Shown one piece after another: positions 33,348 through 50,453 of a DNA stretch of 64,000 nucleotides. Location of the stretch: positions 930,001 to 994,000 of the forward strand of contig NZ_JAQSIO010000001.1 in the NCBI RefSeq assembly GCF_028649455.1, in the 5' to 3' direction. The notes beneath the pieces were generated by a model. It was given only the letters and a program-made list of their open reading frames with translations, was not told the origin of the DNA and searched no databases. The position numbers were made by a program, and so were the translations under genes. Each line of letters starts with the position of its first letter. Position 1 is the stretch's first letter. Source of the stretch: Curvibacter microcysteis. Its GTDB lineage: Bacteria; Pseudomonadota; Gammaproteobacteria; Burkholderiales; Burkholderiaceae_C.

Positions 33348-33360
33348 GAAGCCTCTCAGG
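33343..33360. terminator. hairpin covering the facing stop codons of the MFS gene and nicB
   Basis: CCTGAGA-AGCC-TCTCAGG, a perfect seven-base stem whose two arms contain the stop codons of both convergent genes. It has no T-tract on either side, so intrinsic termination is uncertain. Confidence 0.4.
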
Positions 33361-36300
33361 GGTGGGCGGGTCCCGCGCGCACCCGCGCCAGGGCGGCGGG
33401 CACATCGGTCCAGGGAGCTTGGTCGGGCGCAAAGCGCTGACGCATGTAGCCGGCCAACTCGGTGATCTGGGCGTCGCTGAAGGTGTCGCCAAAAGCCGGC
33501 ATGAAGCCCAAAGCGGGAGAGGCCGGCTGGCGCAGGCCGTGCACGATGGCCTGCAGCAGGTTGTCTGGCCGCGCGCTGTGCAGGTTGCTGTTGAGCGACA
33601 AGGGCACGTTGACGCCCAGCAGGCGCGGGCCGTCGCCGTCGTGGTGGCAGGCGCCACACGCCCCTTCAAACAAGCGCGACACCGGGCTGCCCAGCGGCGC
33701 GCGCGCAGCGGCCTGGGCCACCTGGCGCTGGGCCTGGGCCGGCGCCTCGGGCGCGGGGGTGTTGAAGCTGGCCAGGTAGGTGGCCATGGCCTGCACATCG
33801 GCATCGGGCAAAGCGGCCATCTCGCGCACCACGGGCGCCATGGGGCCACTGGCGCTGCCGTGCTCGGCGCTGTGCCCGTGGCGCAGGTACTGGTAGAGCG
33901 AGGCCTGGGTCCAGGGCACAGGCGCGCGTGACAAGGCGGTCAGCGCGGGCGCCTCCCAGCCGTCCACCAGCGCACCCGACAAATAGGCCGGGCCGCCGCG
34001 CTCGGCGCCCAGCGCGTTGCGCGGGGTGTGGCAGGCGCCGCAGTGGCCCACGCCCTGCACCAGGTAGGCGCCGCGGTTCCATTCGGGCGAGCGGCTGGGC
34101 TCGGGCTGCCAGGGGCTGGGGTCATGGAACAAGGCGTTCCAGCCGGCCATCAGCGGGCGCAGGCTGAAAGGGAAGGCCAGCTGGGTCTGGGGCGCCTGCG
34201 CGGGCACGGGCGGCTGGGCCATGAGCCAGGCGTAAAGCGCGGTCAGGTCCTCGTCGCTCATCTTGGCGAAGGAGGTGTAGGGGAAGGCCGGGTACAGGTG
34301 GTGGCCGTCGCGCGACACGCCCTCGCGCATGGCGCGCTGGAAGGCACTGAAGGACCAGCGGCCCAGGCCCGTGTCGGGGTCGGGCGTGAGGTTGGTGGTG
34401 TAGATGGTGCCAAAGGGCGTGTCCATGGCCCGGCCGCCGGCGTTGGGCACACCACCCGGCGCGGTGTGGCACACGGCGCAGTCGCCGGCGGCGGCCAGCA
34501 GGCGGCCGCGCTCCAGCGTGGCCTGGGTGTAGATGGAGCCACTGGCCGGCTGCACCGGTGCGATCGCCGAGCGCGCGCCCAGCAGGCCCAAGGTGATGCC
34601 CACCGCCGCCGTCAGCAAGGCGCCCACGCGGGCCCAGCGGCGGCGCGAACGCGGGGCCAAAGCGGATTCGGGCCAGGCTTGGGCGAGCTGAGGCTCCGGC
34701 GTGGCACGCGGGCCCGTGTCGGTGGCACCTGGCCGCTGCGGCCCGTCGGGGCCGTCCGGGCCGGGCAAGGGGTTGAGCGCGGCGCGCACCACCTCGGGGG
34801 TGAAGGGCGGCGCGCGAAAGCGCACACCGGTGGCATCAAAAATGGCGTTGGCAATGGCCGCCGTGCCGGGCACCGAGGCCGACTCGCCCGCGCCCAGCGG
34901 GGCCTCGCCAGGGCGCGGCATGTGCAGCACCTCGACCACCGGCACCTCGCGAAAGCTCAGGATCGGGTAGCTGCCCCAGTCGCGGCTGGCCAGGGCCTGG
35001 GGCGCGGCCACCAGCGGGCCGGACGCCGGGGACGTGGGCGACGCGGTGGGCTGGGGCGTCAGGGGCTCAAACTGCACCTGTTCTTTCAAGGCCCGGCTGG
35101 TGGTCTGCAGCACATTGCCGTGGATTTGCTGCTCAATGCCCGCCGGGTTGACCACCAGGCCCGCGTCGTGTCCCACGACCACGCGCTTGACGTGCACCTC
35201 ACCCGTGACCTGGTTGACCTCCACATCGGCCACCCAGGCCGCCCAGGCGGCACCAAAGCCGGGCCACTTGCTGTGCACGTAGCGCGCATAGGCAAAGCCC
35301 TGGCCTTGCAGCCAGTCCCCCTCGCGGCGCTGCTGCGGGCCGGTGTGGGGGCGCCAGCCGGCGCGCTCGGCGGTGGACTGCACCAGCTCGACCGCGCGCG
35401 GGTCGCTCAGGTGCTGCAGACGGAACGCGACCGGGTCGACGCCAGCCGCGGTGGCCAGTTCATCGACAAAGGACTCGTGGGCAAACGAGTTCGGCAGCGC
35501 CGACACCCCGCGCAGCCACGAGGCACGGATGATCGGCGGCATGTCGTTCACCGCGACGCGCAGGTCGCGGTAGTCGTAGGGCGGGCGCGCCGTGCGGTCC
35601 CCCATCTCGTAGGCCTGGGCCAGGGGCTCGACCGTGCGGGTCAGCAGCAGGGCCAGGGTGGGCGCGCCGTTGCTGGGGTAGGACGCCTCGAAGTCGTAGC
35701 CGGCGACCGAGCCGTCGGCATTCAGCCCACCGCGCACCTGCATCAGCTGGGCCGTGCCCTTGGGCTCCCACAGGTGCTCTTGCTCGCGCGTGAGCTGCAC
35801 CCGCACCGGGGCCCCCACCGCGCGTGACAGCAGGGCCGCGTCGGCGGCCACGTCGTCGGCGCCGTTGCGGCCGTAGCAACCGGCGGCCTCCATGCGGATC
35901 AGGTCGATGGCGACGTCGGGCAGGCCCGTCAAGCGGGCCAGGTCGGCGCGCAGCACATGGGGGTTTTGCGTGCCGGCCCAGACCGTCATGCGCGCCTCGG
36001 CCCCGCCCTCCCCGGCACGCCAGTCGGCCACCGCGCAGGACGGGCCGATCGAGCCATGCAGCTGGTAGGGCCAGACATAGCTGCGCGCCATGGGCTGGGC
36101 CGCGCCCGCCAGGGCGGCATCCACATCGCCCTCGTCGACCAGGCGGCGCTGGGTCGCGGGGTTGTTGCGGATGGCCTGGCTCAACGCTTCGGGGCTGGAC
36201 TGGTCGGGGAAGCCGGGCCAGGACTTCCAGCGTACGCGCAGCGCACGCAAGGCTTGCTCGGCGTGTTCTTCGCGCTCGGCCACCACGCCGACAAAGTCAC

Positions 36301-37132
36301 GGATGACCACCACGGCGCGCAGGCCGGGGATGTGGGCCACCGAGCTTTCGTCCACCGACTCCAGCGTGTTGCCGATGAAGTCGCCGTGGTCGGCGCCCGC
36401 GTATGGCGGTCGCAGCACGCGGCCGTGCAGCATGCCGGGCACGCGCATGTCGTGCACAAAGACCAGCTCGCCGCTGACCTTGGCGGGGATGTCCAGGCGC
36501 GGCGCGGACTGGCCCACCAGGCGGTAATCAGCGCTGGGTTTGAGGGGCGTGTCCGGGTCCAGGCGCAGCGCGTGTTGGGACCCGCCCAGCAGCTCGGCCC
36601 AGGGCAAGCGACGCTCGGGCTGGGCGGCCACCACGACCTCACCAGGCCGCACTTGCAAGGCTTCGGGCAGCAGGCGCCAGCGCTGGGCGGCCTGGGCCAG
36701 CAGCCACTGCCGCGCCTGGGCCGCCGCCAGTCGCAGGGGCTGGGCGTGGATCTGGATCGAGGTGCTGGCGATGGTCGCGCCCTGGTTGGGCGCGCGGGTG
36801 GTGTCGCCCAGCACCATGTGCAGGTCGCTCAGGGGCAGGTCCAGCTCTTCGGCCACGATCTGGGCCAGCGCGGTGCGGATGCCCGTGCCCAAGTCCACAT
36901 GGCCACTGAGCGCGGTGACGCTGCCGTCGTCCCACAGGGCCAGCAGCGGCTCGGGCCCTTCGGCCGGGTGGCTGCTCACGAAGGCGGGTTGGCCTTTGAC
37001 GGGCGGCGGGGCGGGCAGCGGGTCGCGCCAGACCAGCAGCACGCCGCTGGCAGCCCAGAAGTCGGCCCGGGTCAGGGGCTGGGTGGCGCGGCGCGGGACG
37101 GCGGGGTGGTCAGCGGGGGGCACGGCGCTCAT
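33356..37132 (-). CDS. nicB: nicotinate hydroxylase large subunit: molybdopterin subunit fused to three-haem cytochrome c
   Basis: Xanthine-dehydrogenase-family protein of 1258 residues. Residues 1 to about 800 form the molybdopterin-binding part, with the catalytic glutamate in GAGESASVPGTAA near residue 747. A membrane helix near residues 830-855 (ALLTAAVGITLGLLGA) is followed by a cytochrome c region with three CXXCH sites: CAVCH near 884, CGACH near 1031 and CGACH near 1159. This layout is that of NicB of the NicAB nicotinate hydroxylase of aerobic Pseudomonas, which makes 6-hydroxynicotinate and passes electrons to cytochrome c. A similar layout occurs in isoquinoline and aldehyde oxidoreductases. 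The N-terminus (LTRADFWAASGVLLVW) resembles a Tat leader with one arginine lost. It overlaps nicA by four bases. Confidence 0.8.
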   Translation of the reverse strand: MSAVPPADHPAVPRRATQPLTRADFWAASGVLLVWRDPLPAPPPVKGQPAFVSSHPAEGPEPLLALWDDGSVTALSGHVDLGTGIRTALAQIVAEELDLPLSDLHMVLGDTTRAPNQGATIASTSIQIHAQPLRLAAAQARQWLLAQAAQRWRLLPEALQVRPGEVVVAAQPERRLPWAELLGGSQHALRLDPDTPLKPSADYRLVGQSAPRLDIPAKVSGELVFVHDMRVPGMLHGRVLRPPYAGADHGDFIGNTLESVDESSVAHIPGLRAVVVIRDFVGVVAEREEHAEQALRALRVRWKSWPGFPDQSSPEALSQAIRNNPATQRRLVDEGDVDAALAGAAQPMARSYVWPYQLHGSIGPSCAVADWRAGEGGAEARMTVWAGTQNPHVLRADLARLTGLPDVAIDLIRMEAAGCYGRNGADDVAADAALLSRAVGAPVRVQLTREQEHLWEPKGTAQLMQVRGGLNADGSVAGYDFEASYPSNGAPTLALLLTRTVEPLAQAYEMGDRTARPPYDYRDLRVAVNDMPPIIRASWLRGVSALPNSFAHESFVDELATAAGVDPVAFRLQHLSDPRAVELVQSTAERAGWRPHTGPQQRREGDWLQGQGFAYARYVHSKWPGFGAAWAAWVADVEVNQVTGEVHVKRVVVGHDAGLVVNPAGIEQQIHGNVLQTTSRALKEQVQFEPLTPQPTASPTSPASGPLVAAPQALASRDWGSYPILSFREVPVVEVLHMPRPGEAPLGAGESASVPGTAAIANAIFDATGVRFRAPPFTPEVVRAALNPLPGPDGPDGPQRPGATDTGPRATPEPQLAQAWPESALAPRSRRRWARVGALLTAAVGITLGLLGARSAIAPVQPASGSIYTQATLERGRLLAAAGDCAVCHTAPGGVPNAGGRAMDTPFGTIYTTNLTPDPDTGLGRWSFSAFQRAMREGVSRDGHHLYPAFPYTSFAKMSDEDLTALYAWLMAQPPVPAQAPQTQLAFPFSLRPLMAGWNALFHDPSPWQPEPSRSPEWNRGAYLVQGVGHCGACHTPRNALGAERGGPAYLSGALVDGWEAPALTALSRAPVPWTQASLYQYLRHGHSAEHGSASGPMAPVVREMAALPDADVQAMATYLASFNTPAPEAPAQAQRQVAQAAARAPLGSPVSRLFEGACGACHHDGDGPRLLGVNVPLSLNSNLHSARPDNLLQAIVHGLRQPASPALGFMPAFGDTFSDAQITELAGYMRQRFAPDQAPWTDVPAALARVRAGPAHP

Positions 37133-37644
37133 CGGGAGGCTCCGGCCGGGGCGGCGCTGGTGCTGCGGTTCGCCATCAGCAGGGCCGCTTTTTGCACCGC
37201 GCGCAGGATGGACAGGTGGGTGCCGCAGCGGCACAGGTTGTGCGACAGCTCGCGGCGGATGTCGGCCTCGCTGGGCTGGGGCTGGCGCGCCAGCAGGGCC
37301 GCCGCCATCATCACCATGCCGTTCAAACAGTAGCCGCACTGGGCGGCCTGCTCGTCGACAAAGGCTTGCTGCACCGGGTGCCACTGGCCGGGCGGGGCCA
37401 GGCCCTCCAGCGTGGTGACCTCGCGGCCCGCCACGCCCACGGCCGGGATCACGCAGGCGCGTGCGGCCACCCCATCCACCAGCACGGTGCAAGCGCCGCA
37501 CTGGCCCAGGCCGCAGCCGTACTTGGGCCCGTTGAGGCCCAGGTCGTTGCGCAGCCAATGCAGGAGGCTGGCGTCGGCGGCGCCCTCGGGCAGGGTGCAG
37601 ACCTGGCCGTTGACGCTCAGGCAGGGGGCGGCGCAGCCGGTCAT
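37129..37644 (-). CDS. nicA: nicotinate hydroxylase small subunit, two [2Fe-2S] clusters
   Basis: Iron-sulfur subunit of 171 residues. The plant-type cluster ligands are C44, C49, C52 and C64 (CGLGQCGAC then C), and the second cluster ligands C103, C106, C138 and C140 (CGYC and CRC). It should carry electrons from the molybdenum centre of NicB to its haems. It overlaps nicB by four bases and lies 19 bases after the nicotinamidase gene. Enzymes of this family act on many N-heterocycles and aldehydes; nicotinate is inferred from neighbours. Confidence 0.82.
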   Translation of the reverse strand: MTGCAAPCLSVNGQVCTLPEGAADASLLHWLRNDLGLNGPKYGCGLGQCGACTVLVDGVAARACVIPAVGVAGREVTTLEGLAPPGQWHPVQQAFVDEQAAQCGYCLNGMVMMAAALLARQPQPSEADIRRELSHNLCRCGTHLSILRAVQKAALLMANRSTSAAPAGASR

Positions 37645-37663
37645 GCGGGGCTCGCTCGAACGA

Positions 37664-38392
37664 TCAGACGAGTTCGATGTCGCTGGACTGGATGCGCTTG
37701 ACGCCCTTGGCGCCCATTTGCTTCCAGGCCGCGGCCAGCGAGCCATTGAGGTCGATGGCGCGGCAGGCGTCTTCGACCACATAGGTCTTGAAGCCCAGGC
37801 GGCGCGCATCCAGCGCGGTCCAGGCGACGCAGAAGTCGGTCGCCAGCCCGGTCACGTAGACGGTCTTGATGCCGCGCGCCTTCAGGTAACCGGCCAGGCC
37901 GGTGGCGGTCTTGCGGTCGGCTTCTTCAAAGGCGGAGTAGCTGTCCACATGCTTGTGGAAGCCCTTGCGCAGGATGACCTGGGCTTGCGGCACCTTGAGG
38001 TCTTTGTGCAGCGCGGCGTCGTCGGTGCCTTGCACGCAGTGGTCGGGCCACAGCACTTGCTGGCCGTAGGCAAGCTTGGTGCTTTCGAAGGGCTTTTTGC
38101 CCTCGTAGCTGCTGGCGAACGAGGCGTGGCCCTGGGTGTGCCAGTCCTGGGTGACGACCACGTTCTCAAACGCGGCGGCGATGCGGTTGATCACCGGCAC
38201 CACCTCGTCGCCCTTGGCCACCGGCAGCGTGCCGCCGGGCACAAAGCAGTTCTGCACGTCGACCACGATGAGGGCGCTGTCAGCGCCGGGCTTGAGGCCG
38301 GCGGCCCAGGCCCGGGTGGACAAGGCGCTGCCGGCCAGGCCCATGAGGGCGGCGGACTGCAGGAACTGGCGGCGCTGAGAGATCAAAGACAT
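37664..38392 (-). CDS. nicotinamidase (PncA family) with Tat signal
   Basis: Isochorismatase-fold amidohydrolase of 242 residues, hydrolysing nicotinamide to nicotinate and ammonia. The catalytic triad is visible as D45 (VVDVQNCF), K143 (ILRKGF) and C188 (LATDFCVAW); metal-site residues lie in QDWH (83-88) and WPDHC (115-119). It resembles E. coli PncA closely in these blocks. Unlike PncA it starts with a twin-arginine leader (SQRRQFLQSAALMGLAG) and an AWA cleavage site near residue 30, so it is expected in the periplasm. Upstream in-frame codons were rejected because the leader fits the ATG at 38392. It lies between livF and nicA in one operon. Confidence 0.82.
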   Translation of the reverse strand: MSLISQRRQFLQSAALMGLAGSALSTRAWAAGLKPGADSALIVVDVQNCFVPGGTLPVAKGDEVVPVINRIAAAFENVVVTQDWHTQGHASFASSYEGKKPFESTKLAYGQQVLWPDHCVQGTDDAALHKDLKVPQAQVILRKGFHKHVDSYSAFEEADRKTATGLAGYLKARGIKTVYVTGLATDFCVAWTALDARRLGFKTYVVEDACRAIDLNGSLAAAWKQMGAKGVKRIQSSDIELV

Positions 38393-38470
38393 GGCATCAC
38401 TCCTGGAAAGTTGAGGGCACTGACAAAACAACACGAAAGCGCACAGCCTCAAGCAGAAGCCGTGCCGCCT

Positions 38471-39217
38471 TCAAACACTCAGGTAGGCCCGGCGCACGGC
38501 CTCGTTCTCGGCCAGTTCGGCCATGCTGGCCTGGTAGCGGATCTGGCCTTTTTCCAGCACGTAGGCGCGGTCGGACACCAGCTCGGCAAAGTGCATGTTC
38601 TGCTCGGACAGCAGAATGCTCACGCCCTGCGCCTTGAGCTCGAGGATCATGTGGGCCATCTGCTCGACGATCACCGGGGCCACGCCCTCGGAGGGCTCAT
38701 CGAGCAGCACCAGGTAGGGGTTGCCCATGAGGGTGCGCGCCACGGTCAGCATCTGCTGCTCGCCGCCGCTCATGCGGCCGCCGGGGCGCTGCTGCATCTC
38801 GCCGAGGTTGGGGAAGAGCTTGAACAGGCGCTCGGGCGTCCATTCGGGCGCGGCACTGCCATCGGGCCAGCGGCGCGGCGGCTGGCGGCCCACGGCCAGG
38901 TTCTCGGTGACGGTGAGGTCGGTGAAGATGCGCCGGTCTTCCGGCACAAAGCCCAGGCCCAGGCGCGCGGCGGTGTGCGGTTCGCCACGCGAGATGTCCT
39001 GGCCCATGAAGTGGATCTGGCCTCGGCGCTTGGCCAACATGCCCATCAAGGCCTTCAAGGTGGTGGACTTGCCGGCGCCGTTGCGGCCCATCAAAGCCAC
39101 GACTTCGCCACGGCGCACCTCCAGGTCCACGTCGTAGAGGATTTGCGCCGCGCCATACCAGGCGGCCAGGCCCTGGGCCTGCAACAAGGGGGTGGAAGAA
39201 GGGACGGCAGCGCTCAT
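38471..39217 (-). CDS. branched-chain-type ABC importer ATPase LivF
   Basis: ATP-binding subunit of 248 residues. Walker A is GRNGAGKSTTLKALMG, the ABC signature is MSGGEQQ and Walker B is PYLVLLDEPSEGVAP. It pairs with LivG and the LivH-LivM fusion encoded just upstream and overlaps livG by four bases. It energises import of the ligand bound by the periplasmic protein at 42042, here predicted to be a pyridine carboxylate or a related compound rather than an amino acid. Confidence 0.9.
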   Translation of the reverse strand: MSAAVPSSTPLLQAQGLAAWYGAAQILYDVDLEVRRGEVVALMGRNGAGKSTTLKALMGMLAKRRGQIHFMGQDISRGEPHTAARLGLGFVPEDRRIFTDLTVTENLAVGRQPPRRWPDGSAAPEWTPERLFKLFPNLGEMQQRPGGRMSGGEQQMLTVARTLMGNPYLVLLDEPSEGVAPVIVEQMAHMILELKAQGVSILLSEQNMHFAELVSDRAYVLEKGQIRYQASMAELAENEAVRRAYLSV

Positions 39218-40017
39218 GCAACAGACTCCACCGCAGACGCGGCTGCGGGATCGGGGGCTTGGTTTTTCTCGAAGGTCTTGCCGGAGCCGAAGTACACCTC
39301 CTGCACCTTGGGGTGGTCGCGCAGTTCGAGGGGCTTGCCCTCGGCAATCAGGCGGCCCCGCGCCAGCACGATCATGCGGTCGGCGTAGGCGAACACCACG
39401 TCCATGCTGTGCTCGGTGAACAGCACGGCCATGCCCCGGTCGACCACCAGTTGCTTGGTCAGGGCCATGAGGTCATTGCGCTCTTTCGGGGCCATGCCGG
39501 CGGTGGGCTCGTCCATCAACAACAGCTTGGGCGAATTGGCCATGGCGATGGCCAGCTCGACACGCTTGACGTCGCCGTAGGCCAGCTCGCTGCAAGGCCG
39601 GTCGGCCTGGGCCCGCATGCCCACCTGGGCCAGCAGGTCGAGGGCCTGGTCGCGCTTGTGCTCGGAGGCCTTGCGCCAGAAGGAGAACAAGCGGTCGTCC
39701 ACCGACAGCAAGGCCATCTGCACGTTCTCCACCACGCTCAGCGAGGCAAAGGTTTCGGCGATCTGGAAGGTGCGGCCCACGCCCATGCGCCAGATGTCGC
39801 GCGGCTTGCGGCCGACCAGCTCCTGGCCGTTGAGCAAAATGGAGCCGCTGTCGGCCGGCAACTGCCCGTTGACCATGTTGAAGGTGGTCGACTTGCCCGC
39901 GCCATTGGGCCCGATCAAGGCCAGCAACTCGCCTGCGGCCAGCTCGAAGTGGATGCCATCCACGGCCTTGACGCCGCCAAAGGCCTTGCCCAGGCCGGCA
40001 ACTTTCAACAAGCTCAT
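39214..40017 (-). CDS. branched-chain-type ABC importer ATPase LivG
   Basis: ATP-binding subunit of 267 residues. Walker A is GPNGAGKSTTFNMVNG, the signature segment is LAYGDVKRVELAIAM (degenerate signature, usual for LivG) and Walker B is LLLMDEPTAGMAP. It overlaps both neighbours by four bases (livF downstream, livHM upstream), so stoichiometric translation is likely. Confidence 0.9.
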   Translation of the reverse strand: MSLLKVAGLGKAFGGVKAVDGIHFELAAGELLALIGPNGAGKSTTFNMVNGQLPADSGSILLNGQELVGRKPRDIWRMGVGRTFQIAETFASLSVVENVQMALLSVDDRLFSFWRKASEHKRDQALDLLAQVGMRAQADRPCSELAYGDVKRVELAIAMANSPKLLLMDEPTAGMAPKERNDLMALTKQLVVDRGMAVLFTEHSMDVVFAYADRMIVLARGRLIAEGKPLELRDHPKVQEVYFGSGKTFEKNQAPDPAAASAVESVA

Positions 40018-41948
40018 GCCTGCTCCTTGGTGGTGGTGTGGATGGCGGCTGCCGCGCGGTGGCGGCGGCGTTCTTGCCAGCTGTCAATCAGGTGCTTGAT
40101 CGAGCCCGCAATGCCCTGCGGGAACAAGAGCACCAGCAACAAAATGATGGCGCCCAGCATGGCGCGCCAGTAGTCGGTGTTGCGCGCCACGGTGTCGTGC
40201 AGCCAGGTGAAGGTGACCGCGCCCACCACCGGGCCCGACAGGGTTTGAATCCCGCCCAGCAGCACCATGACCAGGCCGTCCACCGACTTGCCCACGGCCA
40301 GGGCCTCGGGCGAAATGCTGCCCTTGGAGAAGGCAAACAAGGCGCCGCCCAAGCCGGCAAAGCCTCCCGCGATGATGAAGCCCACCCACTGCATGCGCTT
40401 GACGTCGATGCCAATCGCGTCAGCGCGCAGCGCCGAGTCCCGGCCCGCGCGCAGGGCATAGCCGAAGGGCGAGAACAGCACGCGGCGCAGCAGCAGCACG
40501 GCCCCGGTGACCAGTGCCAGGGTCAGGTAGTAGTAGTTGACCTTGTCCGCCAGCCAGGCCGCCGGCCACACCCCGGTGAGGCCATTGCTGCCGCCGGTGA
40601 AGCCATCCCACTGGTAGCAGATGGCCCAGGTGATCTGGGCAAAGGCCAGGGTCAGCATGGCCAGGTAGGTGCCTGACAGGCGCACGCAGAACCAGCCGTA
40701 GATCAGGGCGCCCACCGCCGCCGCAAAGGGCGCCAGCACCAGGGCCAGCTCCATGGGGATGCCGGCCGAGCGCACCAGCAGCGCGGCCGCATAGGCACCC
40801 AGGCCAAAGTAAGCCGCGTGACCGAACGAGTGCATGCCGGCCGGGCCCATGATGAAGTGCAGGCTGGCCGCAAACAGGGCGGCGATCATGAGGTCGATCA
40901 TCAACACCGACAGGTAAGGCGAGCCCGCCGTGAGCCAGGGCAGCAGCACCAGGGCGGCCATCAGCGCGGCACCGCCCAGCTTGAACCAGCGCCCGGGGTG
41001 GCGCAGCGGCGCCTCGGCCAGGCCGGTGTGCCGGCTGTTGGCCTGGGCCTTGCCCATCAGCCCCCAGGGCCGCACCACCAGCACCACGGCCATGACGAGG
41101 AATTCGACCACCAGGGTCAGTTTGGAAAACGACACACTGACGCCAAACAGCTCCACCACGCCCAGCCAGATGCAGATGGCCTTGATCTCGGCAATCAACA
41201 AGGCCGCCGCATAGGCGCCCGGGATCGAACCCATGCCGCCCACCACCACCACCACGAAGGCGGCGCCGATGGTGTTCAGGTCCATCTCCAGCGTGGCGGG
41301 TTCACGCGGCAGTTGCAGCGCCCCACCCAGACCGGCCAGCAGCGCGCCCAGGGCAAACACCGCCGTAAACAACCAGGCCTGGTTGACGCCAAGCGCACTG
41401 ACCATCTCGCGGTCTTGCGTGGCGGCGCGCACCAGCGTGCCCCAGCGGGTGCGGGTCAGCAGCAGGGTGAGCGCGCCCAGCACCAACGGGCCGACCACAA
41501 TCAGGAACAGGTCATAGGCCGGGAAGTTGCGGCCCAGGATGTCGACCGAACCCGCCAGCCCTGGGGCGCGGGGGCCCAACAGTTCTTCGGGTCCCCAGAT
41601 CCACAGCGCGGCGTCCTTGATCACCAGCACCAGCGCAAAGGTAGCCAGCAGCTGGAACAGCTCGGGCGCCTTGTAGATGCGGCGCAGCAGCACCATCTCC
41701 ACCAGCGCGCCGAGCACCCCGGTGATGACGGCGGCCAGCAGCAGCGCGGGCCAAAAGCCCAGGCTGGCGCCGAACTTGCCGACCAGGCTGTAGGCCAGGT
41801 AGATGCCGACCATGAAGAAGGAACCGTGCGCAAAGTTCACGATGCGCGTGACCCCGAAGATCAGTGACAGCCCCGCCGCCACCAGGAACAGCGAGGACGC
41901 CCCCGCCAGCCCATTGAGCAGCTGCACCACAAAGCTCGAAACACCCAT
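40014..41948 (-). CDS. fused ABC importer permease (LivH-LivM)
   Basis: Membrane protein of 644 residues combining both permeases. The LivH half begins FVVQLLNGLAGASSLFLVAA and includes the GVTRIVNFAHGSFFMVG motif; the LivM half begins near residue 330 with a new set of helices and the MHSFGHAAYFGLGAYAAA motif. The coupling helix regions for LivG and LivF appear twice. In most bacteria the two permeases are separate, but fusions of this type occur in proteobacteria. The ATG at 41948 is preferred to an upstream in-frame start, which lacks membrane character. Confidence 0.88.
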   Translation of the reverse strand: MGVSSFVVQLLNGLAGASSLFLVAAGLSLIFGVTRIVNFAHGSFFMVGIYLAYSLVGKFGASLGFWPALLLAAVITGVLGALVEMVLLRRIYKAPELFQLLATFALVLVIKDAALWIWGPEELLGPRAPGLAGSVDILGRNFPAYDLFLIVVGPLVLGALTLLLTRTRWGTLVRAATQDREMVSALGVNQAWLFTAVFALGALLAGLGGALQLPREPATLEMDLNTIGAAFVVVVVGGMGSIPGAYAAALLIAEIKAICIWLGVVELFGVSVSFSKLTLVVEFLVMAVVLVVRPWGLMGKAQANSRHTGLAEAPLRHPGRWFKLGGAALMAALVLLPWLTAGSPYLSVLMIDLMIAALFAASLHFIMGPAGMHSFGHAAYFGLGAYAAALLVRSAGIPMELALVLAPFAAAVGALIYGWFCVRLSGTYLAMLTLAFAQITWAICYQWDGFTGGSNGLTGVWPAAWLADKVNYYYLTLALVTGAVLLLRRVLFSPFGYALRAGRDSALRADAIGIDVKRMQWVGFIIAGGFAGLGGALFAFSKGSISPEALAVGKSVDGLVMVLLGGIQTLSGPVVGAVTFTWLHDTVARNTDYWRAMLGAIILLLVLLFPQGIAGSIKHLIDSWQERRRHRAAAAIHTTTKEQA

Positions 41949-43247: not shown

Positions 43248-43326
43248 GGGAAGCACTCCTGTGGGTGGGTGGGGGTGAGTGAGTGAGCGGGAGCTGGTGG
43301 GGGAAGCGGGGGCGGTCGGCGCGGCT

Positions 43327-43911
43327 TCAGCGCAGGCCGTCCTGGCCTTTGATTTCATGGGCTTGCAAGCCGCCGATGCGGGGCAGCGGACGGCCCCCGT
43401 CGGTGACCACCACGGCGACCACGATCTCGTTGGCGCGCGGTGCGTCGGCCACGCGCGCCTCCATGGCGTCAAAGTGGCTGCGCACGTAGGCGGCGTCCTT
43501 GTGGCCCAGGGGCACGTCGATGGCGGTGCCCAGACCGCCGCGTTTCTTGGACGAGGGCACCAGGGCCGCGCCTTTTTCAACCGCTTCGCGCAAGGGGGCG
43601 CCCAGTTTGGGGTGCAGGATGGCGGCGGCGTGCTCCAGCTCGCCGGCCTCGCCCACGATGGCGGCCTTGCCGTAGCTGTGGGCCTGACCAGGCTCAATGC
43701 CCAAGGCCTGCACGCAGCGGCGGCCCAGCAGGCCGCCGAGTTCTTCACCGATGGCCACCAGGGCGTCGAGGTTTTCTTCGTAGCGGCCGGCAAAGGGGTT
43801 GTCGATCACGGCCATGGCCAGCGCCTTGCGCACCGGCGGGTTCACGGGGCGGCCCATCTCGACGCGGACTTCGTCCACCTGCACGATGATTTTGCGGATC
43901 TTGGCACTCAT
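43327..43911 (-). CDS. DUF1185 (amino acid synthesis family) protein, copy 1
   Basis: Protein of 194 residues, paralogous to the next gene. Shared blocks are NPFAGRY near residue 38, a YGKAAIVGEAGELEHA segment, and VPSSKKRGGLGTAIDVPLGH followed by YVRSHFDA; both end in DGLR. A structural-genomics structure exists for this family, but no enzymatic activity has been established that I know of. There is no signal peptide. The conserved acidic and histidine residues (GELEH, DVPLGH) suggest an active site. It lies 50 bases after copy 2. Confidence 0.85.
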   Translation of the reverse strand: MSAKIRKIIVQVDEVRVEMGRPVNPPVRKALAMAVIDNPFAGRYEENLDALVAIGEELGGLLGRRCVQALGIEPGQAHSYGKAAIVGEAGELEHAAAILHPKLGAPLREAVEKGAALVPSSKKRGGLGTAIDVPLGHKDAAYVRSHFDAMEARVADAPRANEIVVAVVVTDGGRPLPRIGGLQAHEIKGQDGLR

Positions 43912-43961
43912 GTTCTGTTCCTCGAATCGGTTCTCGTTGGGGGCGGTGCGGGCGGCGGCGC

Positions 43962-44603
43962 TCAGCGCAGGCCGTCCCATTGGCTGATGGCGTCGGCGGC
44001 CAGGCCGGCCACCCGGGCATGCACGCGGGGACCGGTGCTCATGGCCAGGATGAAGACGATCTCGTCGGGCAGCGGTGCGCCGGGCACGCGCACCTCGATG
44101 GCGTCAAAGTGGCTGCGCACATAACTGGCGTTGATGTGGGTCAGCGGCACGTCCAGTGCGGCGCCCGGGCCACCGACCTTCTTGGTCGAGGGCACGATGG
44201 ACAAGGCGTTGCCAGGTTGGCCCGTCTTGACCTCGGCAGCACCTTTTTTGTAGGCGTCGCGGTCGCCCTTCCAGCCCAGCAGTTCGCGCATGGCGTAGCC
44301 GCCGGGCACATGCCACAGCGCACCGTGTTCCAGTTCGCCGGCGGCGCCAATGATGGCGCCCTTGCCGTAGCCTTCGATGCGCTCGACGGGCACGTCCATG
44401 GCGGCGCGCAGGCGCTGTGCCATGTCGATGCCCACCGCCTGCAGCGCGTCCATCATGGGCAGGATGTCTTGCACATAGCGGCCAGCAAAGGGGTTGGTGA
44501 GCACGGCCCCAATGGCACCACGCTGGAGCGGCACGGCCGCCGGCGGCCCGAATTCGTGCCGGATTTCTTCAACATGGGTGAAAACGCGTCGGATGTCGAT
44601 CAT
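43962..44603 (-). CDS. DUF1185 (amino acid synthesis family) protein, copy 2
   Basis: Protein of 213 residues with the same conserved blocks as copy 1: NPFAGRY, YGKGAIIGAAGELEHG, VPSTKKVGGPGAALDVPLTH, YVRSHFDA and a final DGLR. It carries an insertion of about 15 residues (around GGYAMRELLGWKGDRDAYKK) absent from copy 1. The pair may form a hetero-oligomer or act on related intermediates. It begins 21 bases after the UPF0280 gene. Confidence 0.85.
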   Translation of the reverse strand: MIDIRRVFTHVEEIRHEFGPPAAVPLQRGAIGAVLTNPFAGRYVQDILPMMDALQAVGIDMAQRLRAAMDVPVERIEGYGKGAIIGAAGELEHGALWHVPGGYAMRELLGWKGDRDAYKKGAAEVKTGQPGNALSIVPSTKKVGGPGAALDVPLTHINASYVRSHFDAIEVRVPGAPLPDEIVFILAMSTGPRVHARVAGLAADAISQWDGLR

Positions 44604-44624
44604 GTCTGGTGCCTGTGCATTTCG

Positions 44625-45548
44625 TTAAGCAAATACTGAACCAACTTCATTTTTGAGCCATGGCGCCGGGCTATTTTCGGGCCTGCTGAGCGCGCCTGGG
44701 TGTTCGGTGCTGAGCACCTGCTGCTGGCAGCTCAGCAGGGCGAACCATACCAGCCCCGCAGCCCTCAATTCTTCCGCTTTTTTCAAGCCCCGGTGCAGGG
44801 CCTGGCGCAGCAGCGCCTCGGGCAGGGGAGGCACCGCCACCGTGACGGGAATCGACCCCAGGTCGCTGTCGTCGCGCAGCTCGCCGGCCGGGCGGCGCTC
44901 GATGCCGGGATGGTCCACATTGACGGCGTTGGCGATCACCGTGGCCGCCGCATCGGCCTGGGCCGCTGTGGCGGCCAGCACGGTGACGCTGTCGGCAATG
45001 CCCAGCGAGTGGCTGCGCCCGCGCCAGCCGCTGGTGGCCACCCCGCGCACCGGCCACTCGGCGGGCAGCTCGAACTGGCCATCGAGCTGCAGGCCTTGCC
45101 GCAGCTGCGGCAGGTCCAGCCGGGCCAGGTCGGCAAACAAGCCGATGCGGGCGCGCTGACCGGGTTGCAGGTGCAAGGCGATGTCGCCGCCGTTGTTGAC
45201 CCAGGCGCGGCGCACACCGGGCACGGCGTAAGCGGCCACGATCTCTTGCGCCACCGCGCCCGCCACCGCCGCCATGGGGGTAATGAATTGCTGCGGTGCA
45301 AACGGAAGGCAGGCCTGCCACATGCGGCGCGCCACCGGACCTTGCAGCGCACAGTGCGTGCCGACGGGCTGGCGCAGCGTGGGCAGCTCGGCCACCAGCT
45401 CGGGCAGCACCTGTTCAAAGCGCTGCCAGGCGCGCTCGTGCGCGGCCGCCAGCGCCGGGGCGTCGCCCTCGGCGCCGATCACCAGGTCGATGGGGCCGTG
45501 CTGAAAATGCCAGCGGGCGTCGGGCAGCAGGTGGCGGGTGGCGTGCAT
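44625..45548 (-). CDS. UPF0280 family protein, ApbE-like
   Basis: Protein of 307 residues of the UPF0280 family. ApbE-like features can be seen: a VNNGGDIALH segment, then GVATSGWRGRSHSLGIAD with the TSG and histidine positions of ApbE, and an SVTVLAATAAQADAAATV helix (ApbE: SVTV...ADA.AT). ApbE proteins attach FMN to target proteins. The gene lies 25 bases after the reductase gene at 45574, whose characterised relative carries covalent flavin, so a flavin-transfer or maturation role is attractive but unproven. No signal peptide is seen, unlike most ApbE lipoproteins. Confidence 0.78.
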   Translation of the reverse strand: MHATRHLLPDARWHFQHGPIDLVIGAEGDAPALAAAHERAWQRFEQVLPELVAELPTLRQPVGTHCALQGPVARRMWQACLPFAPQQFITPMAAVAGAVAQEIVAAYAVPGVRRAWVNNGGDIALHLQPGQRARIGLFADLARLDLPQLRQGLQLDGQFELPAEWPVRGVATSGWRGRSHSLGIADSVTVLAATAAQADAAATVIANAVNVDHPGIERRPAGELRDDSDLGSIPVTVAVPPLPEALLRQALHRGLKKAEELRAAGLVWFALLSCQQQVLSTEHPGALSRPENSPAPWLKNEVGSVFA

Positions 45549-45573
45549 GGGTGGGTGCGGTGGAGACGGTGGC

Positions 45574-47190
45574 TCAGCCCAGCAGCGGTGGCTGGCCCAG
45601 CGGCCACGGGTTGGCCTCGGGCAGGGTCAACCACTGCAGGGACTGCGGCGCGCCGTCGTTGTGCCAGGCGCCGCGCTGCAAGACCTCTTGCAAGCCACGG
45701 ATCTGGCCCATGTGCCCGCCCAGGGCCTCGTAATCACTGCGCCGCATGCTGAACTCGATGGGCGCCACGATGGCGGGCGTGGGCACGGTGCCAAAGCTGT
45801 TGTCGGGCATGCGCAGCACGTCGGCCATGACGGTGATGCCGCCACCTGGCCACACGTAGGCGGGCGCGCCCCCCACGGTGACATTGACCAGCGCTTGCTT
45901 GATGGAGCGCGTGAGCAGCACGGGGTTTTCAGTGACGCCCGCGCGCAGGCTGCCGCCCGCCCCCGCCAAGAACAGCACGGTGGACAGCGAGGGCTCGCAG
46001 TTCTCGCCGATGCGGTCGACGATGCGGCGCACTTCGGCCGGCATCTCGGTTTCGACCGGCTGCAACTGCGCGTCCAGCACGTACCAGCTGGCGTGTTCGC
46101 CGGTGGTGGACGTCATCAGCAAGCGCAGGCCGGGCCAGGCCACCACCGGGTCCCACGGGTCCAGGATGGACAAGGGCTCGGCAATGTCGGTGCCGCCCCA
46201 GCCATTGCCCGGGTTGGCCACCTGGAAGTAGCGGCCCGGCGTGGACTTGCGCCCGCGCATGGCAATCCCCGAAGGCTTCATGTCCAGGCAGCGCCCGGCC
46301 TGGTGCTCGGTCAGCACGCCGGTGATGTGGTCGTCCACCACCACCACCTCGTCCACCAGACCAAAGAACTGGCGCGCAAAAATGCCCACCGCGGCGGAGC
46401 CGCAGCCCACGCGCATGCGCTGCTCGGCCACGCCATTGACGATGGGGGCACGCCCCGCCTGGATGACGATCTGCGAGCCGCCGTCGATGGTGAACTCAAC
46501 CGCTTGCTTGTTGCCCAGGGCCTGCATCATCTCGGCGGTGATGCGCCCTTCTTTCTTGCTGCCGCCGGTGAGGTGGTGCACCCCCCCGAGCGACAGCATT
46601 TGCGAGCCGTACTCGGCCGTGGTGACGTGGCCCACCACCTCGCCCTTGCAGCGCACATTGGCCTGCTCGGCGCCCAGAAAGCGGTCGGTGTCGATCTTCA
46701 CCTTGAAGCTGCAGTAGCTGAAGATGCCCTCGGTGACCACCGTCACCATGTCCACCCCCTGCTGCTGAGAGCCGACAATGAAGGGCGCGGGTTTGTAGTC
46801 GGGGTAGGTGGTGGACGAGCCCACACCGGTGACAAACACCTGCTCGCTGTGCAGCAGGTCGCCGGACCAGGCTGGCATGGGGGCTGCCGTGTCGGATGCC
46901 GCCACCTCGGCGCTGCGCCCGGCAAAGGGGACCAGGGCTGCTTCACCGGCGTCCAGGCTGCGGCGCAAGACCACCACCGGATCCAGGCGAACCAGGGTGC
47001 CGCCATGGTTGGCGTAGCGGTCGCAGGCGCCGGCGCGGCCTTCGGAGATTTGGCACAACACGGGGCAGGCATTGCACTCGACCTTGGCGCTGTTCATGCG
47101 CTCATTGCGGGGCCGGGCCCGCTCCATCACCTGCGGCAAACCCGGGGCATCGAGTCCCGGCAATCCATCGGTCTTGGTGTGTTCAGTCAT
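45574..47190 (-). CDS. 6-hydroxynicotinate reductase-like flavo/iron-sulfur protein
   Basis: Protein of 538 residues, first gene of the operon. Residues 39-56 hold a cluster motif C-X2-C-X3-C-X9-C (CNACPVLC then GACDRY). Only five more cysteines follow (near 160, 181, 263, 301 and 398). It resembles proteins annotated as 6-hydroxynicotinate reductase, after the Eubacterium barkeri enzyme that reduces 6-hydroxynicotinate to 1,4,5,6-tetrahydro-6-oxonicotinate and contains covalent flavin, one [2Fe-2S] and two [4Fe-4S] clusters. Nine cysteines could not bind all of those, so this member has fewer clusters. The ATG at 47190 is preferred to a TTG nine codons upstream. The DDHITG segment near residue 290 only partly resembles the DXX(S/T)GAT flavinylation motif. 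Confidence 0.65.
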   Translation of the reverse strand: MTEHTKTDGLPGLDAPGLPQVMERARPRNERMNSAKVECNACPVLCQISEGRAGACDRYANHGGTLVRLDPVVVLRRSLDAGEAALVPFAGRSAEVAASDTAAPMPAWSGDLLHSEQVFVTGVGSSTTYPDYKPAPFIVGSQQQGVDMVTVVTEGIFSYCSFKVKIDTDRFLGAEQANVRCKGEVVGHVTTAEYGSQMLSLGGVHHLTGGSKKEGRITAEMMQALGNKQAVEFTIDGGSQIVIQAGRAPIVNGVAEQRMRVGCGSAAVGIFARQFFGLVDEVVVVDDHITGVLTEHQAGRCLDMKPSGIAMRGRKSTPGRYFQVANPGNGWGGTDIAEPLSILDPWDPVVAWPGLRLLMTSTTGEHASWYVLDAQLQPVETEMPAEVRRIVDRIGENCEPSLSTVLFLAGAGGSLRAGVTENPVLLTRSIKQALVNVTVGGAPAYVWPGGGITVMADVLRMPDNSFGTVPTPAIVAPIEFSMRRSDYEALGGHMGQIRGLQEVLQRGAWHNDGAPQSLQWLTLPEANPWPLGQPPLLG

Positions 47191-47564
47191 CTCTGAAGAT
47201 TGGTTTGTGGGGGCCAAAAGACAGCTTGTGCAGCCATTTCATTTTGTGTAGCATCCACTTAACAAAAATGTGGCGTTCACTACATTGGAGGTCAATGTAG
47301 CGCATTCACTGCAGCCCCGCAACGGTATTTTTCCGCTCCCAAAAAGGGGGCATCAGGAGCCCCGATTTGATGCACACCCCGCTCAGCGCCCCGCTTCGGT
47401 GCCCCCGGCCAGCCCACCCTGACAGCGCCCAAAAAAGAGGGCCATGCAACTTGCGGAACAATGGAGGGGCGTGAGCCAGTCGCCTGCCCGGCCAAAAAAT
47501 CGGAAAATCCCCCGCCCCAGCGCCCTGCCTTCACCCCTTTATTCAACTTTGTGACCTGAACACC
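47191..47564. other. 374-base divergent regulatory region between the reductase operon and fpr
   Basis: No gene is seen. It is less GC-rich than its surroundings at 47225-47300 and holds the inverted repeat at 47280-47300. Related TGTAGC/TGTGGC units occur at 47247, 47269 and 47296. On the minus strand a TTGACC (47294-47289) could serve as a -35 element overlapping the repeat, with a poor -10. The rest, near fpr, shows no clear signal beyond A-rich patches at 47494-47505. Confidence 0.7.
47280..47300. promoter_or_regulatory. candidate TetR operator upstream of the reductase operon
   Basis: CTACATTG-GAGGT-CAATGTAG, a perfect inverted repeat of eight-base arms. It lies about 90 bases upstream of the operon's first ATG and overlaps a possible -35 element. 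The nearest regulator is the TetR gene at 48429. Confidence 0.65.
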
Positions 47565-48338
47565 ATGAGTGCCTTTCTTGAAGAAACCGTGCTGTCCGTC
47601 CACCACTGGACTGACCGCCTCTTCTCCTTCACCACCACCCGCGACACTGCTTTGCGTTTCTCCAACGGCCACTTCACCATGATCGGCCTGCGCGTGAACG
47701 AGAAGCCGCTGCTGCGCGCCTACAGCATCGCCAGCGCCAACTACGAAGAACACCTCGAGTTCCTCAGCATCAAGGTGCCCGAAGGCCCGCTGACCTCGCG
47801 CCTGCAGCACATCCAGGTGGGTGACAAGATCGTGGTGGGCAAGAAGCCCACCGGCACCTTGCTGATCGACTACCTGCTGCCTGCCAAGCGCCTGTACATG
47901 CTGTCCACCGGCACCGGCCTGGCCCCGTTCATGAGCCTGATCCGCGACCCCGAGACCTACGAGAAGTTCGAAGAAGTCGTGCTGGTGCATGGCGTGCGCC
48001 AAGTCAATGAACTGGCCTACCACGACTACATCACCCAAGAACTGCCCCAGCACGAGTTCCTGGGCGAGATGGTCAGCCAGCAGCTCAAGTACTACCCCAC
48101 CGTGACCCGCGAGGCCTACAAGCACCAAGGCCGCGTGACCACCGTGATCGAAAACGGCCAACTGGCCGCCGACCTGGGCCTGCCCGCGCTGAACCCGGTC
48201 GAAGACCGCGTGATGATTTGCGGCAGCCCCGAGATGCTGCGCGACCTCAAGCACATGATGGAAGCGCGCGGCTTCAAAGAAGGCAACACCACCAAACCCG
48301 GCGACTTCGTGATCGAACGCGCCTTTGCCGACCAGTGA
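47565..48338 (+). CDS. fpr: ferredoxin-NADP+ reductase
   Basis: FAD-dependent reductase of 257 residues of the bacterial Fpr type. Visible are the FAD-binding RAYSIASA motif, the TGTLLIDYLLP segment, the NADP-binding STGTGLAPFMSLIRD, and the C-terminal CGSPEMLRDLKHMM. It exchanges electrons between NADPH and ferredoxin or flavodoxin in the cytoplasm. It often serves oxidative-stress and Fe-S functions, but its place between the reductase and the enamidase genes suggests it could feed the low-potential reductase. It ends at a strong terminator. Confidence 0.92.
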   Translation: MSAFLEETVLSVHHWTDRLFSFTTTRDTALRFSNGHFTMIGLRVNEKPLLRAYSIASANYEEHLEFLSIKVPEGPLTSRLQHIQVGDKIVVGKKPTGTLLIDYLLPAKRLYMLSTGTGLAPFMSLIRDPETYEKFEEVVLVHGVRQVNELAYHDYITQELPQHEFLGEMVSQQLKYYPTVTREAYKHQGRVTTVIENGQLAADLGLPALNPVEDRVMICGSPEMLRDLKHMMEARGFKEGNTTKPGDFVIERAFADQ

Positions 48339-48346
48339 ACGGCCCG

Positions 48347-48428: not shown

Positions 48429-49181
48429 ATGTCTGCCACCCCCAGAAAGACCCGGACCGCAGCGAAGTCAAGCCCCCTGGCGCGCCGCCCGGGCGTGCGC
48501 GAGCAAGCGGCTCAAACCACCCGCGACAACATCTTGAAAGCGGCCATCAAGGTGTTTGCCCGCTATGGCTACGATGGGGGCAGCCTGGAGAAGATCTCCA
48601 AAGCGGCGAAGTCCTTCGACCGCATGATTTACTACTACTTCGGTAGCAAGGAAGGTCTCTACATCGAGGTCATCGAAGAAATCTACCGCCGCATGAACGA
48701 GGCCGAGGCCAAGCTTGATCTCGATCCCGATCAGCCGGTGGACGCTTTGCAGGCGGTGATCCGTTTTGTGGTCGGTTACTACCGGCGCAACCCCGAATTC
48801 GTCACCCTGCTCAACACCGAGAACCTGCACAAGGGCAAGCACATCGTCAAATCGGTGCGCGCCCGCGAGTACTCCTCGCCCGCGATCGAAGTGATCCGCC
48901 AACTGCTGGCCAGTGGCCAGGCCCAGGGCCTGTTCCGGCCCGACATGGCCGCGCGCGACCTGTACCTGCTGATCGCCGCCAACGGCTACTTCTACATGTC
49001 CAACCGGCACACGCTGTCGGCCTTTCTGGGCGAAGACCTGGAAGCCCCCGAGGCCCTGGCGCACTGGGAAGAATTCGTCATCGACACCGTGCTGCGCGCC
49101 GTGGCCCCGCACCCCCCGTTGGCCGCGCCCACCCCTGCGCGATCGCGTGCCAGCACCAGGCCACCAGCCGCCAGCGCCTGA
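48429..49181 (+). CDS. TetR-family transcriptional regulator
   Basis: Regulator of 250 residues. The N-terminal helix-turn-helix spans about residues 30-80 (DNILKAAIKVFARYGYDGGS, then YYYFGSKEGLYIEVI). A ligand-binding all-helical domain follows, and a Pro/Ala/Arg-rich tail of about 25 residues ends the protein. It lies 72 bases before the enamidase gene on the same strand, and opposite the reductase operon, so it probably controls both. The ligand may be nicotinate or 6-hydroxynicotinate. Confidence 0.87.
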   Translation: MSATPRKTRTAAKSSPLARRPGVREQAAQTTRDNILKAAIKVFARYGYDGGSLEKISKAAKSFDRMIYYYFGSKEGLYIEVIEEIYRRMNEAEAKLDLDPDQPVDALQAVIRFVVGYYRRNPEFVTLLNTENLHKGKHIVKSVRAREYSSPAIEVIRQLLASGQAQGLFRPDMAARDLYLLIAANGYFYMSNRHTLSAFLGEDLEAPEALAHWEEFVIDTVLRAVAPHPPLAAPTPARSRASTRPPAASA

Positions 49182-49253
49182 ACCCGACCCTTGCCTGACC
49201 CGCCGCCCCGCCGGGGTGGGGGTCTTCCGACCTCACCCCCACAGGAGCACACC

Positions 49254-50453
49254 ATGGCAGAACCCGCCGCCGGCGCCAAGTCCGGCAAAGTCGTCATCCA
49301 GAACATCGGCCTCTTGCTGTCAGGCGATCTCGATCACCCGATCCTCGACGCTGACACCGTGGTCGTGCATGACGGCCTGATCACGGCCGTGGGCCGCTAC
49401 AAGGACTGCGACACCGAGGGCGCGCAAACCGTCATCGACGCACGCCAGACCTGCGTGGCGCCAGGCCTGATCGACAGCCATGTGCACCCGGTGTTTGGCG
49501 ACTGGACCCCGCGGCAAAACCAGATCGGCTGGATCGACTCGACCATGAACGGTGGCGTGACCACCATGGTCTCGGCCGGCGAAGTGCACCTGCCTGGCCG
49601 CCCCAAGGACATCGTCGGTCTGAAGGCGCTGGCCATCACCGCGCAGCGCTCGTTTGACAACTTCCGCCCTGGCGGTGTGAAGGTGATCGCGGGCGCGCCG
49701 GTGATTGAAAAAGGCATGACCGAGCAGGACTTCAAAGACCTGGCCGACGCGGGCGTGACCTTGCTCGGCGAAGTGGGCCTGGGCTCGGTCAAGGCCGGCT
49801 ACGAAGCCCAGCAAATGGTGGCCTGGGCGCGGCAACACGGCATCCAGAGCACCATCCACACCGGCGGCCCCTCGATCCCGGGCTCGGGCCTGATCGACAA
49901 GGACGTGGTGCTGGAGGCCGATGCCGACGTGATCGGTCACATCAACGGCGGCCACACCTCCTTGCCCTGGAAGCATGTCTGCGAGCTGTGCGAGAAGTCC
50001 TCGCGCGCCATCGAACTGGTGCACAACGGCAATGAAAAAATCGCCATCCAGGCCGCGCGGGCCGCGATGGAACTGAAGTGTCCGCACCGCGTGATCCTGG
50101 GCACCGACGGGCCCGCCGGCTCGGGCGTGCAGCCCCTGGGCATGCTGCGCATGATTGCGCTGATTTCGAGCTTCGCCAACATCCCGGCCGAGCTGGTGTT
50201 CTGCTTTGCCACCGGCAACACGGCGCGCATCCGAAACCTGAACTGCGGACTGATCGAGGTGGGCCGGGCCGCTGACTTTGTCTTCATGGACCGGGCCCAG
50301 CACACCGCCGGCAAGACCTTGCTGGAGAGTGTCGAGCTCGGCGACATCCCAGGCATCGGCATGGTGATGATCGACGGCCTGGTGCGCTGTGGCCGCAGCC
50401 GCAACACGCCGCCGGCCACCGAGATCCCGGTGGTCCTCAGCGGCGCGCACTGA
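49254..50453 (+). CDS. enamidase (amidohydrolase family)
   Basis: Metal-dependent amidohydrolase of 399 residues resembling enamidase of the E. barkeri nicotinate pathway, which hydrolyses 1,4,5,6-tetrahydro-6-oxonicotinate to ammonia and 2-formylglutarate with an Fe-Zn centre. Metal ligands can be placed: H76 and H78 (DSHVHPVFGD), E173 (LGEVGLGS) in the bridging position, H202 (IHTGG), H229 (GHINGG) and D285 (GTDGPAGSG). The TPRQ, AGEVHLPGRP and NFRPGGVKV segments fit the enamidase subgroup rather than dihydroorotase or imidazolonepropionase. An AGGAG ribosome binding site precedes the ATG. Confidence 0.82.
   Translation: MAEPAAGAKSGKVVIQNIGLLLSGDLDHPILDADTVVVHDGLITAVGRYKDCDTEGAQTVIDARQTCVAPGLIDSHVHPVFGDWTPRQNQIGWIDSTMNGGVTTMVSAGEVHLPGRPKDIVGLKALAITAQRSFDNFRPGGVKVIAGAPVIEKGMTEQDFKDLADAGVTLLGEVGLGSVKAGYEAQQMVAWARQHGIQSTIHTGGPSIPGSGLIDKDVVLEADADVIGHINGGHTSLPWKHVCELCEKSSRAIELVHNGNEKIAIQAARAAMELKCPHRVILGTDGPAGSGVQPLGMLRMIALISSFANIPAELVFCFATGNTARIRNLNCGLIEVGRAADFVFMDRAQHTAGKTLLESVELGDIPGIGMVMIDGLVRCGRSRNTPPATEIPVVLSGAH

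Follow-up and report, generated by a model that had tools for sequence, protein, structure and literature searches.

Here we report the analysis of a catabolic gene cluster of Curvibacter microcysteis, located at positions 33356-50453 of a 64,000-nucleotide stretch of contig NZ_JAQSIO010000001.1 (hereafter the window), which probably represents, in an Acidovorax-like form from the Burkholderiales, the Azorhizobium-type reductive pathway for nicotinate, the predicted substrate. The cluster encodes a 6-hydroxynicotinate reductase-type protein, Hnr, with an adjacent hydroxylase (NicAB), an ATP-binding cassette (ABC) importer and a ring-opening enzyme (enamidase), the combination that marks clusters of this type, as well as proteins of the UPF0280 and DUF1185 families. 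In the proposed pathway, nicotinate would either be imported or arise from nicotinamide through the action of a nicotinamidase that is possibly exported. NicAB would hydroxylate it, with cytochrome c as electron acceptor; 6-hydroxynicotinate would then be reduced by Hnr, for which the ferredoxin-NADP reductase Fpr is the probable source of electrons, and the enamidase would open the ring to yield 2-formylglutarate. The role we favour for UPF0280 is that it would attach the cofactor of Hnr, a covalent flavin, and for DUF1185 that it would help in the conversion of 2-formylglutarate to glutarate semialdehyde and CO2. The gene identities given in an earlier note on this DNA, and the front end deduced there from nicotinamide through nicotinate, 6-hydroxynicotinate and tetrahydro-6-oxonicotinate to 2-formylglutarate, fit our comparisons. 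The joining of NicAB to a reductive route is not special to this organism, and the absence, noted there, of genes for 2-formylglutarate use is in doubt. The pathway is not new and has precedents in a small number of other aerobes, since the Hnr nicotinate cluster has been described in Azorhizobium and Bradyrhizobiaceae. According to that report, a cluster with Hnr and the first three steps is found in A. caulinodans, Bradyrhizobium, Rhodopseudomonas, and strain SG-6C; the SG-6C protein is 42% identical to the Eubacterium barkeri reductase, and this strain grows on nicotinate and 6-hydroxynicotinate, the latter appearing transiently on nicotinate (PMC3511419).

Hnr (45574-47190, minus strand) was recognized through the names of its plasmid relatives, 17 of 26 of which are called 6-hydroxynicotinate reductase (57-79% identity), an annotation and not a test. 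No Pfam family scored over its cut-off against the protein, no relative was found in the PDB, and its predicted model (predicted local distance difference test, pLDDT, 67) matched no PDB fold at E <= 0.001. A remote kinship of Hnr with DUF39 (PF01837) was considered; no match between them appeared in the Pfam search at E <= 10, and this family was found in 0 of 20 genomes and in 0 of 398 Pseudomonadota genomes. Among 115 aligned Hnr sequences, C39 is present in all and C42, C46, and C56 in 114 each (one gap apiece), forming a conserved CX2CX3CX9C motif of predicted iron-sulfur-binding cysteines. The same sequences contain one D-x-x-[ST]-G stretch, D287-H-I-T-G-V-L-[ST]294, in which D287, T290, and G291 are invariant and position 294 is Thr (79) or Ser (36).

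To the occurrence of Hnr in the Pseudomonadota genomes surveyed, that of UPF0280 (44625-45548, minus strand; NF003322 at 402 bits, cut-off 290) corresponds exactly. Among 398 Pseudomonadota genomes, Hnr was detected in 33 at E <= 0.001, and removal of G245 with its 36-residue match (9e-4) left 32, including G016 despite a gene split over two frames. The co-occurrence survey recommended in the earlier note, run on these genomes, found UPF0280 over cut-off in the identical 32/398, with sub-cut-off partial matches in two more, DUF1185 in 31 and the enamidase in 18 of the 32. The two genes share a strand in 30/30 genomes examined. In a separate survey of Hnr loci, at least 590 stretches were found in GTDB species genomes and the best 80 kept; UPF0280 lies 5-165 bp downstream of Hnr on the same strand in 78 of 79 of them, L066 being left out for want of room for the gene, and at 558 bp in L047. 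Among plasmids, Hnr is present in 26 records, and UPF0280 in these 26 and in one Hydrogenophaga plasmid, pBPS33-1, where a 55-residue stretch resembling the Hnr C-terminus lies just upstream of it beside IS1071 (30.8% identity, E 1.7e-4 in a search against that stretch alone) and is a probable Hnr remnant. UPF0280 is thus likely an obligate partner of Hnr. Two side observations concern these loci. In G016 (L172), the Hnr frame consists of two overlapping pieces in different frames, reflecting either sequencing error or decay, and the cluster keeps UPF0280, DUF1185, the importer, and the hydantoinase HyuA. The pBPS33-1 record (Hydrogenophaga sp. BPS33, L141) has four UPF0280 places and, at 1035-22495, a repeated segment with IS1071 twice in the stretch; the repeat contains UPF0280, MarR, a Rieske oxygenase, tripartite-transporter binding proteins, and a PDR/VanB oxidoreductase, and looks like an amplified catabolic transposon.

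As judged by profile comparison, UPF0280, which we take to be the same family as COG2122, is a divergent homologue of ApbE. The Pfam ApbE family matches 13 of 18 UPF0280 members at E <= 1 (best 1.1e-5; window copy 0.056), and hhalign against a profile of 12 ordinary ApbE proteins gave 94.3% (E 9.8e-8, 97 columns). The TSG serine and ADA aspartate are invariant in 18/18 members, and a GGD/GE motif is also common to ApbE. By matching of positions, these two residues appear to correspond to the Ser and Asp of the Ser-His-Asp catalytic triad of ApbE described in PMC12052999. Ordinary ApbE is found over cut-off in 19/32 Hnr-plus genomes and is absent in 13/32, that of the window included; the only sub-cut-off ApbE match, in G159, falls inside the UPF0280 gene. 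That UPF0280 is the transferase attaching a covalent flavin to Hnr is a real possibility, if somewhat short of an even chance.

The ring-opening step seems to be filled in either of two ways. The enamidase of the window (49254-50453, plus strand) aligns by residues 11-391 of 399 to residues 2-382 of 2VUN, which we take to be the E. barkeri enamidase (367 bits, 1.1e-108), and keeps its HxH, GEVGLG, HTGG, and GHINGG stretches, presumably the metal site. In some alphaproteobacterial Hnr-UPF0280-DUF1185 clusters a HyuA/HyuB hydantoinase pair stands in place of the enamidase. The 32 Hnr-plus genomes comprise 18 with a full-length enamidase (scored at 528 bits or more) and 16 with an Hnr-linked HyuA (61-100% identity and at least 880 bits, against 46% and 629 bits for the next HyuA paralogue), with both in 2 and neither in 0; the enamidase is alone in 16 and HyuA alone in 14. 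Neither enzyme was found at the Hnr-plus level in the 80 of 365 Hnr-minus genomes searched (limits 1e-40 for the enamidase and 1e-100 for HyuA), where the best HyuA scored 477 bits and the single enamidase relative, in G238, 291 bits at 41% identity. A plain Fisher test gives 5e-7. The enamidase lies within about 20 kb of Hnr in 16/18 genomes, the exceptions being both double genomes. The ring opener seems exchangeable, the predicted HyuAB pair replacing the enamidase. A literature search limited to the spellings hydantoinase and 6-hydroxynicotinate found no paper in which the two occur together.

The predicted nicotinate hydroxylase has the NicAB class features, namely a [2Fe-2S] subunit and a molybdopterin subunit fused to a multihaem cytochrome c, to which it would pass electrons. 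The NicA-type subunit (37129-37644, minus strand; Fer2_2 at 1.8e-28) carries two [2Fe-2S] cysteine motifs, and the NicB-type subunit (33356-37132, minus strand) has MoCoBD_1/MoCoBD_2 and cytochrome c domains, the latter with three CXXCH motifs. The best solved chain for the cytochrome part is 8gy3_A (323 bits), and the molybdo part matches 8gy3_C (137 bits) and the nicotinate dehydrogenase 3hrd_B (103 bits; presumably of E. barkeri), the closest solved relative thus being 8gy3, an aldehyde dehydrogenase. The nicotinamidase (37664-38392, minus strand; NF008623 at 193.7 bits, cut-off 174) has a twin-arginine-like N-terminus containing SQRRQFLQS; it is possibly exported, and nicotinamide may therefore be deamidated outside the cytoplasm. 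The joining of a NicAB-type hydroxylase to a reductive route, described in the earlier note, is not special to this organism, as NicAB occurs together with Hnr in 15/31 typed genomes and NicA in 48 of the 50 Burkholderiales loci that, among the best 80, are flanked by 8 kb or more on each side. Hydroxylase and transporter types differ among Hnr loci.

Two DUF1185 (AA_synth) genes lie downstream of UPF0280, copy a at 43962-44603 and copy b at 43327-43911 (minus strand; PF06684 at 9.2e-67 and 1.5e-73, respectively). At E <= 0.001 the predicted model of copy b (pLDDT 86.8) has no matches other than 2qtp and 3byq, which together with the Pfam match places it in PF06684; the fold search gave no functional clue. 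An AtzD/barbiturase-like ring opener, considered as a candidate for DUF1185, was set aside for want of support, given these two matches alone, rather than disproved. DUF1185 is present in 31/32 Hnr-plus genomes versus 11 of 48 Hnr-minus genomes picked by hand. Among these 11, L234, L237, and L238 are operons of DUF1185, an alpha/beta hydrolase, a flavin reductase, a luciferase-like monooxygenase, and an aldehyde dehydrogenase, L232 combines DUF1185 with the hydrolase and flavin reductase, L233 with the hydrolase and aldehyde dehydrogenase, and L228 has a 40% enamidase relative in its context; the other five show no clear theme, one neighbour each having been scanned. The type of L234, L237, and L238 resembles the trigonelline (tgn) operon reportedly described by Perchat in 2018, in which the ring is opened by a luciferase-like oxygenase, whereas the route predicted here goes by reduction. 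Azorhizobium reportedly decarboxylates at the 2-formylglutarate point, according to Kitts in 1992. The nicotinate and trigonelline pathways would both give a 2-formyl dicarboxylate from which CO2 has to be removed, and for this reason we favour DUF1185 as a decarboxylase or tautomerase at the 2-formylglutarate step, although as a rather doubtful proposal. The earlier note, in stating that no genes for 2-formylglutarate use are in the window, may thus have been wrong, since this compound is a possible substrate of both DUF1185 proteins. A coumarin study makes TgnF a homologue of the DUF1185-family protein HcdD, so that a DUF1185 protein accompanies the degradation of a nicotinate derivative in the tgn system as well (PMC7913881).

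Stand-alone enamidase loci were met in G123 and G194 (L226 and L227), where a further locus carries a pair of DUF1185 genes adjoining an enamidase and a weakly MarR-like gene; Hnr and UPF0280 are absent from the 18 kb examined at each. At the G194 locus, the one whose neighbours were scanned, genes for a nucleoside hydrolase, an isochorismatase-family protein, and a PnrA-like importer of the nucleoside type are also present, and these loci possibly serve nicotinamide nucleoside uptake.

Different readings were weighed for the substrate and for both accessory families. The cluster could act on another pyridine or hydroxypyridine carboxylate, with nicotinate as a side substrate only, as the variation of hydroxylase and transporter types between loci and a Rieske oxygenase within the run of one relative would allow. 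We consider this quite improbable in view of the nicotinamidase in the operon (itself in only 26/50 Burkholderiales loci), the match of the enamidase to 2VUN, and the growth of SG-6C, with its Hnr cluster, on nicotinate and 6-hydroxynicotinate (PMC3511419). UPF0280, for its part, could serve Hnr without flavin, in the handling of persulfide or of iron-sulfur groups, a kind of role put forward for COG2122 and DUF39 in homocysteine synthesis. According to PMC5764234, Desulfovibrio depends on COG2122 together with DUF39 to form homocysteine, and Rauch and colleagues suggested a persulfide role; that module likewise pairs an ApbE-related family with a dedicated partner protein, which is Hnr here and not DUF39. 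The conserved CX2CX3CX9C motif of Hnr and the missing triad histidine segment of UPF0280 agree with such handling, and the ApbE homology, with GGD/GE, TSG, and ADA motifs in common, argues for flavin instead, as does the covalent flavin reported for E. barkeri Hnr; on balance the non-flavin role appears rather unlikely.

For DUF1185, a role as enamine/imine deaminase or as semialdehyde dehydrogenase helper, instead of decarboxylase, is possible but short of likely. Ring opening of the HyuA type would leave an enamine needing deamination, and TgnF is said to stimulate the TgnE-dependent oxidation of succinic semialdehyde, whereas attempts to see an effect of the homologous HcdD failed, with no stimulation, in the coumarin study (PMC7913881 for both). 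DUF1185 moreover accompanies the enamidase too, and because the E. barkeri enamidase is bifunctional according to PMC9304392, enamidase loci should need no deaminase; nor did the model match any fold outside DUF1185 at E <= 0.001.

Several observations weigh against the roles that we prefer, that is, flavin transfer by UPF0280, decarboxylation or tautomerization by DUF1185, and exchange of ring openers. UPF0280 lacks the segment bearing the ApbE triad histidine in the profile comparison and is therefore not classed as a canonical ApbE, the exact ApbE target motif D-x-x-[ST]-G-A-[ST] was not found in the 115 Hnr sequences, which have only the degenerate form, and the ApbE count covers the 32 Hnr-plus genomes. 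The covalent flavin of E. barkeri Hnr is reportedly described by Alhapel in 2006. DUF1185 was not found in Hnr-plus G139 and is thus not strictly needed. Eight of the 16 HyuA genes lie near Hnr, and the other eight, found on a different contig or 70 kb or more away, are linked to it by co-occurrence only. On the reductase tree (drawn without G016), ring-opener type changes at least twice (double genomes omitted) and hydroxylase type at least three times (one untyped genome omitted), so that the counts are not independent and the independent events may be few.

It is unlikely that all parts hold together, with UPF0280 (COG2122) as a dedicated cytosolic flavin transferase for Hnr and maybe also for DUF39 in homocysteine synthesis, DUF1185 as the missing 2-formyl-dicarboxylate decarboxylase common to nicotinate and trigonelline catabolism, and HyuAB as an alternative ring opener. 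The known pathway itself gives three widespread families without assignment specific candidate roles open to test: UPF0280, which is also implicated in homocysteine synthesis in a way not yet explained; DUF1185, still labelled 'amino acid synthesis'; and the hydantoinase-type pair that seems to stand in for the enamidase. The reductive vitamin B3 cluster is common in Burkholderiales and appears to be assembled from interchangeable modules; Paraburkholderia xenovorans LB400 is among the strains that carry it (L103).

Compared with known systems, the cluster combines features of several. The Pseudomonas putida nic cluster has a NicAB-type hydroxylase with fused cytochrome c as well but continues oxidatively via NicC and NicX. 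The nicotinate fermentation of E. barkeri, reportedly described by Alhapel in 2006, differs in its selenium-type NdhFSLM hydroxylase, where the window has NicAB with cytochrome c, and in proceeding via methyleneglutarate to propionate and pyruvate. Near the Hnr cluster of a Sagittula stellata plasmid (L142, 1-2872), genes are annotated as fumarylacetoacetate hydrolase family, methylisocitrate lyase, and PrpF-domain proteins, reminiscent of the E. barkeri methylitaconate/dimethylmalate steps. The Azorhizobium hydroxylase is reportedly respiratory, according to Kitts in 1992. With the E. barkeri fermentation, also described in PMC9304392, the cluster shares the predicted reduction of 6-hydroxynicotinate and an enamidase, which matches 2VUN. 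With the aerobic, reductive route of Azorhizobium, reportedly described by Kitts in 1989 and 1992, and of SG-6C it shares the Hnr-type reductase, an ABC transporter, conserved proteins of unknown function, and the genes that cover the first three steps (PMC3511419); the operon nicotinamidase, TetR, two DUF1185 genes, and Burkholderiales host are features seen here.

The coordinates of the open reading frames bear out the arrangement described in the earlier note, with eleven closely spaced minus-strand genes (33356-47190), the stated gaps and overlaps, and divergent fpr, tetR, and enamidase on the plus strand. From Hnr towards NicB the gaps are 25, 21, 50, 79, 93, 78, and 19 bases, and LivHM/LivG, LivG/LivF, and NicA/NicB overlap by 4 bases each. 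Between the DUF1185 genes and the nicotinamidase lie, all on the minus strand, the importer genes for a substrate-binding protein (42042-43247; Peripla_BP_6 at 4.5e-70), a fused LivH-LivM permease (40014-41948, by translation), and LivG- and LivF-type ATPases (39214-40017 and 38471-39217, by translation and by relatives adjoining Hnr). The divergent Hnr-fpr intergenic region (47191-47564) is a likely control region. Fpr (47565-48338, plus strand), identified by translation and by 54% identity to an annotated Hnr-adjacent ferredoxin-NADP reductase of Sagittula, is a candidate electron donor to Hnr, and is followed by a TetR-type regulator (48429-49181, plus strand; TetR_N, TetR_C_29).

The best 80 Hnr loci bear Burkholderiales or betaproteobacterial names, bar one 'uncultured bacterium', and the closest named reductase relatives among them are mostly from Acidovorax (85-88% identity), with one Curvibacter metagenome-assembled genome at 86%, which points to a host of the Comamonadaceae type. 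Both DUF1185 genes are present in 50/50 of the well-flanked loci, the enamidase in 48, TetR in 47, fpr in 36, and the nicotinamidase in 26, and because the order is conserved across Hnr loci the grouping is not due to chance. In the Curvibacter genus the reductase occurs in 6 of the 9 genomes examined, and the three without it are small (2.3-2.5 Mb). By translation, the flanks of the cluster encode a major facilitator superfamily transporter-like protein (32070-33347), a cobalamin-dependent methionine synthase-like protein (52722-55463), and a beta-lactamase-fold serine hydrolase-like protein (50570-51706), a relative of which is found close to the enamidase at L032, L033, L035, and L037, all of them Acidovorax loci.

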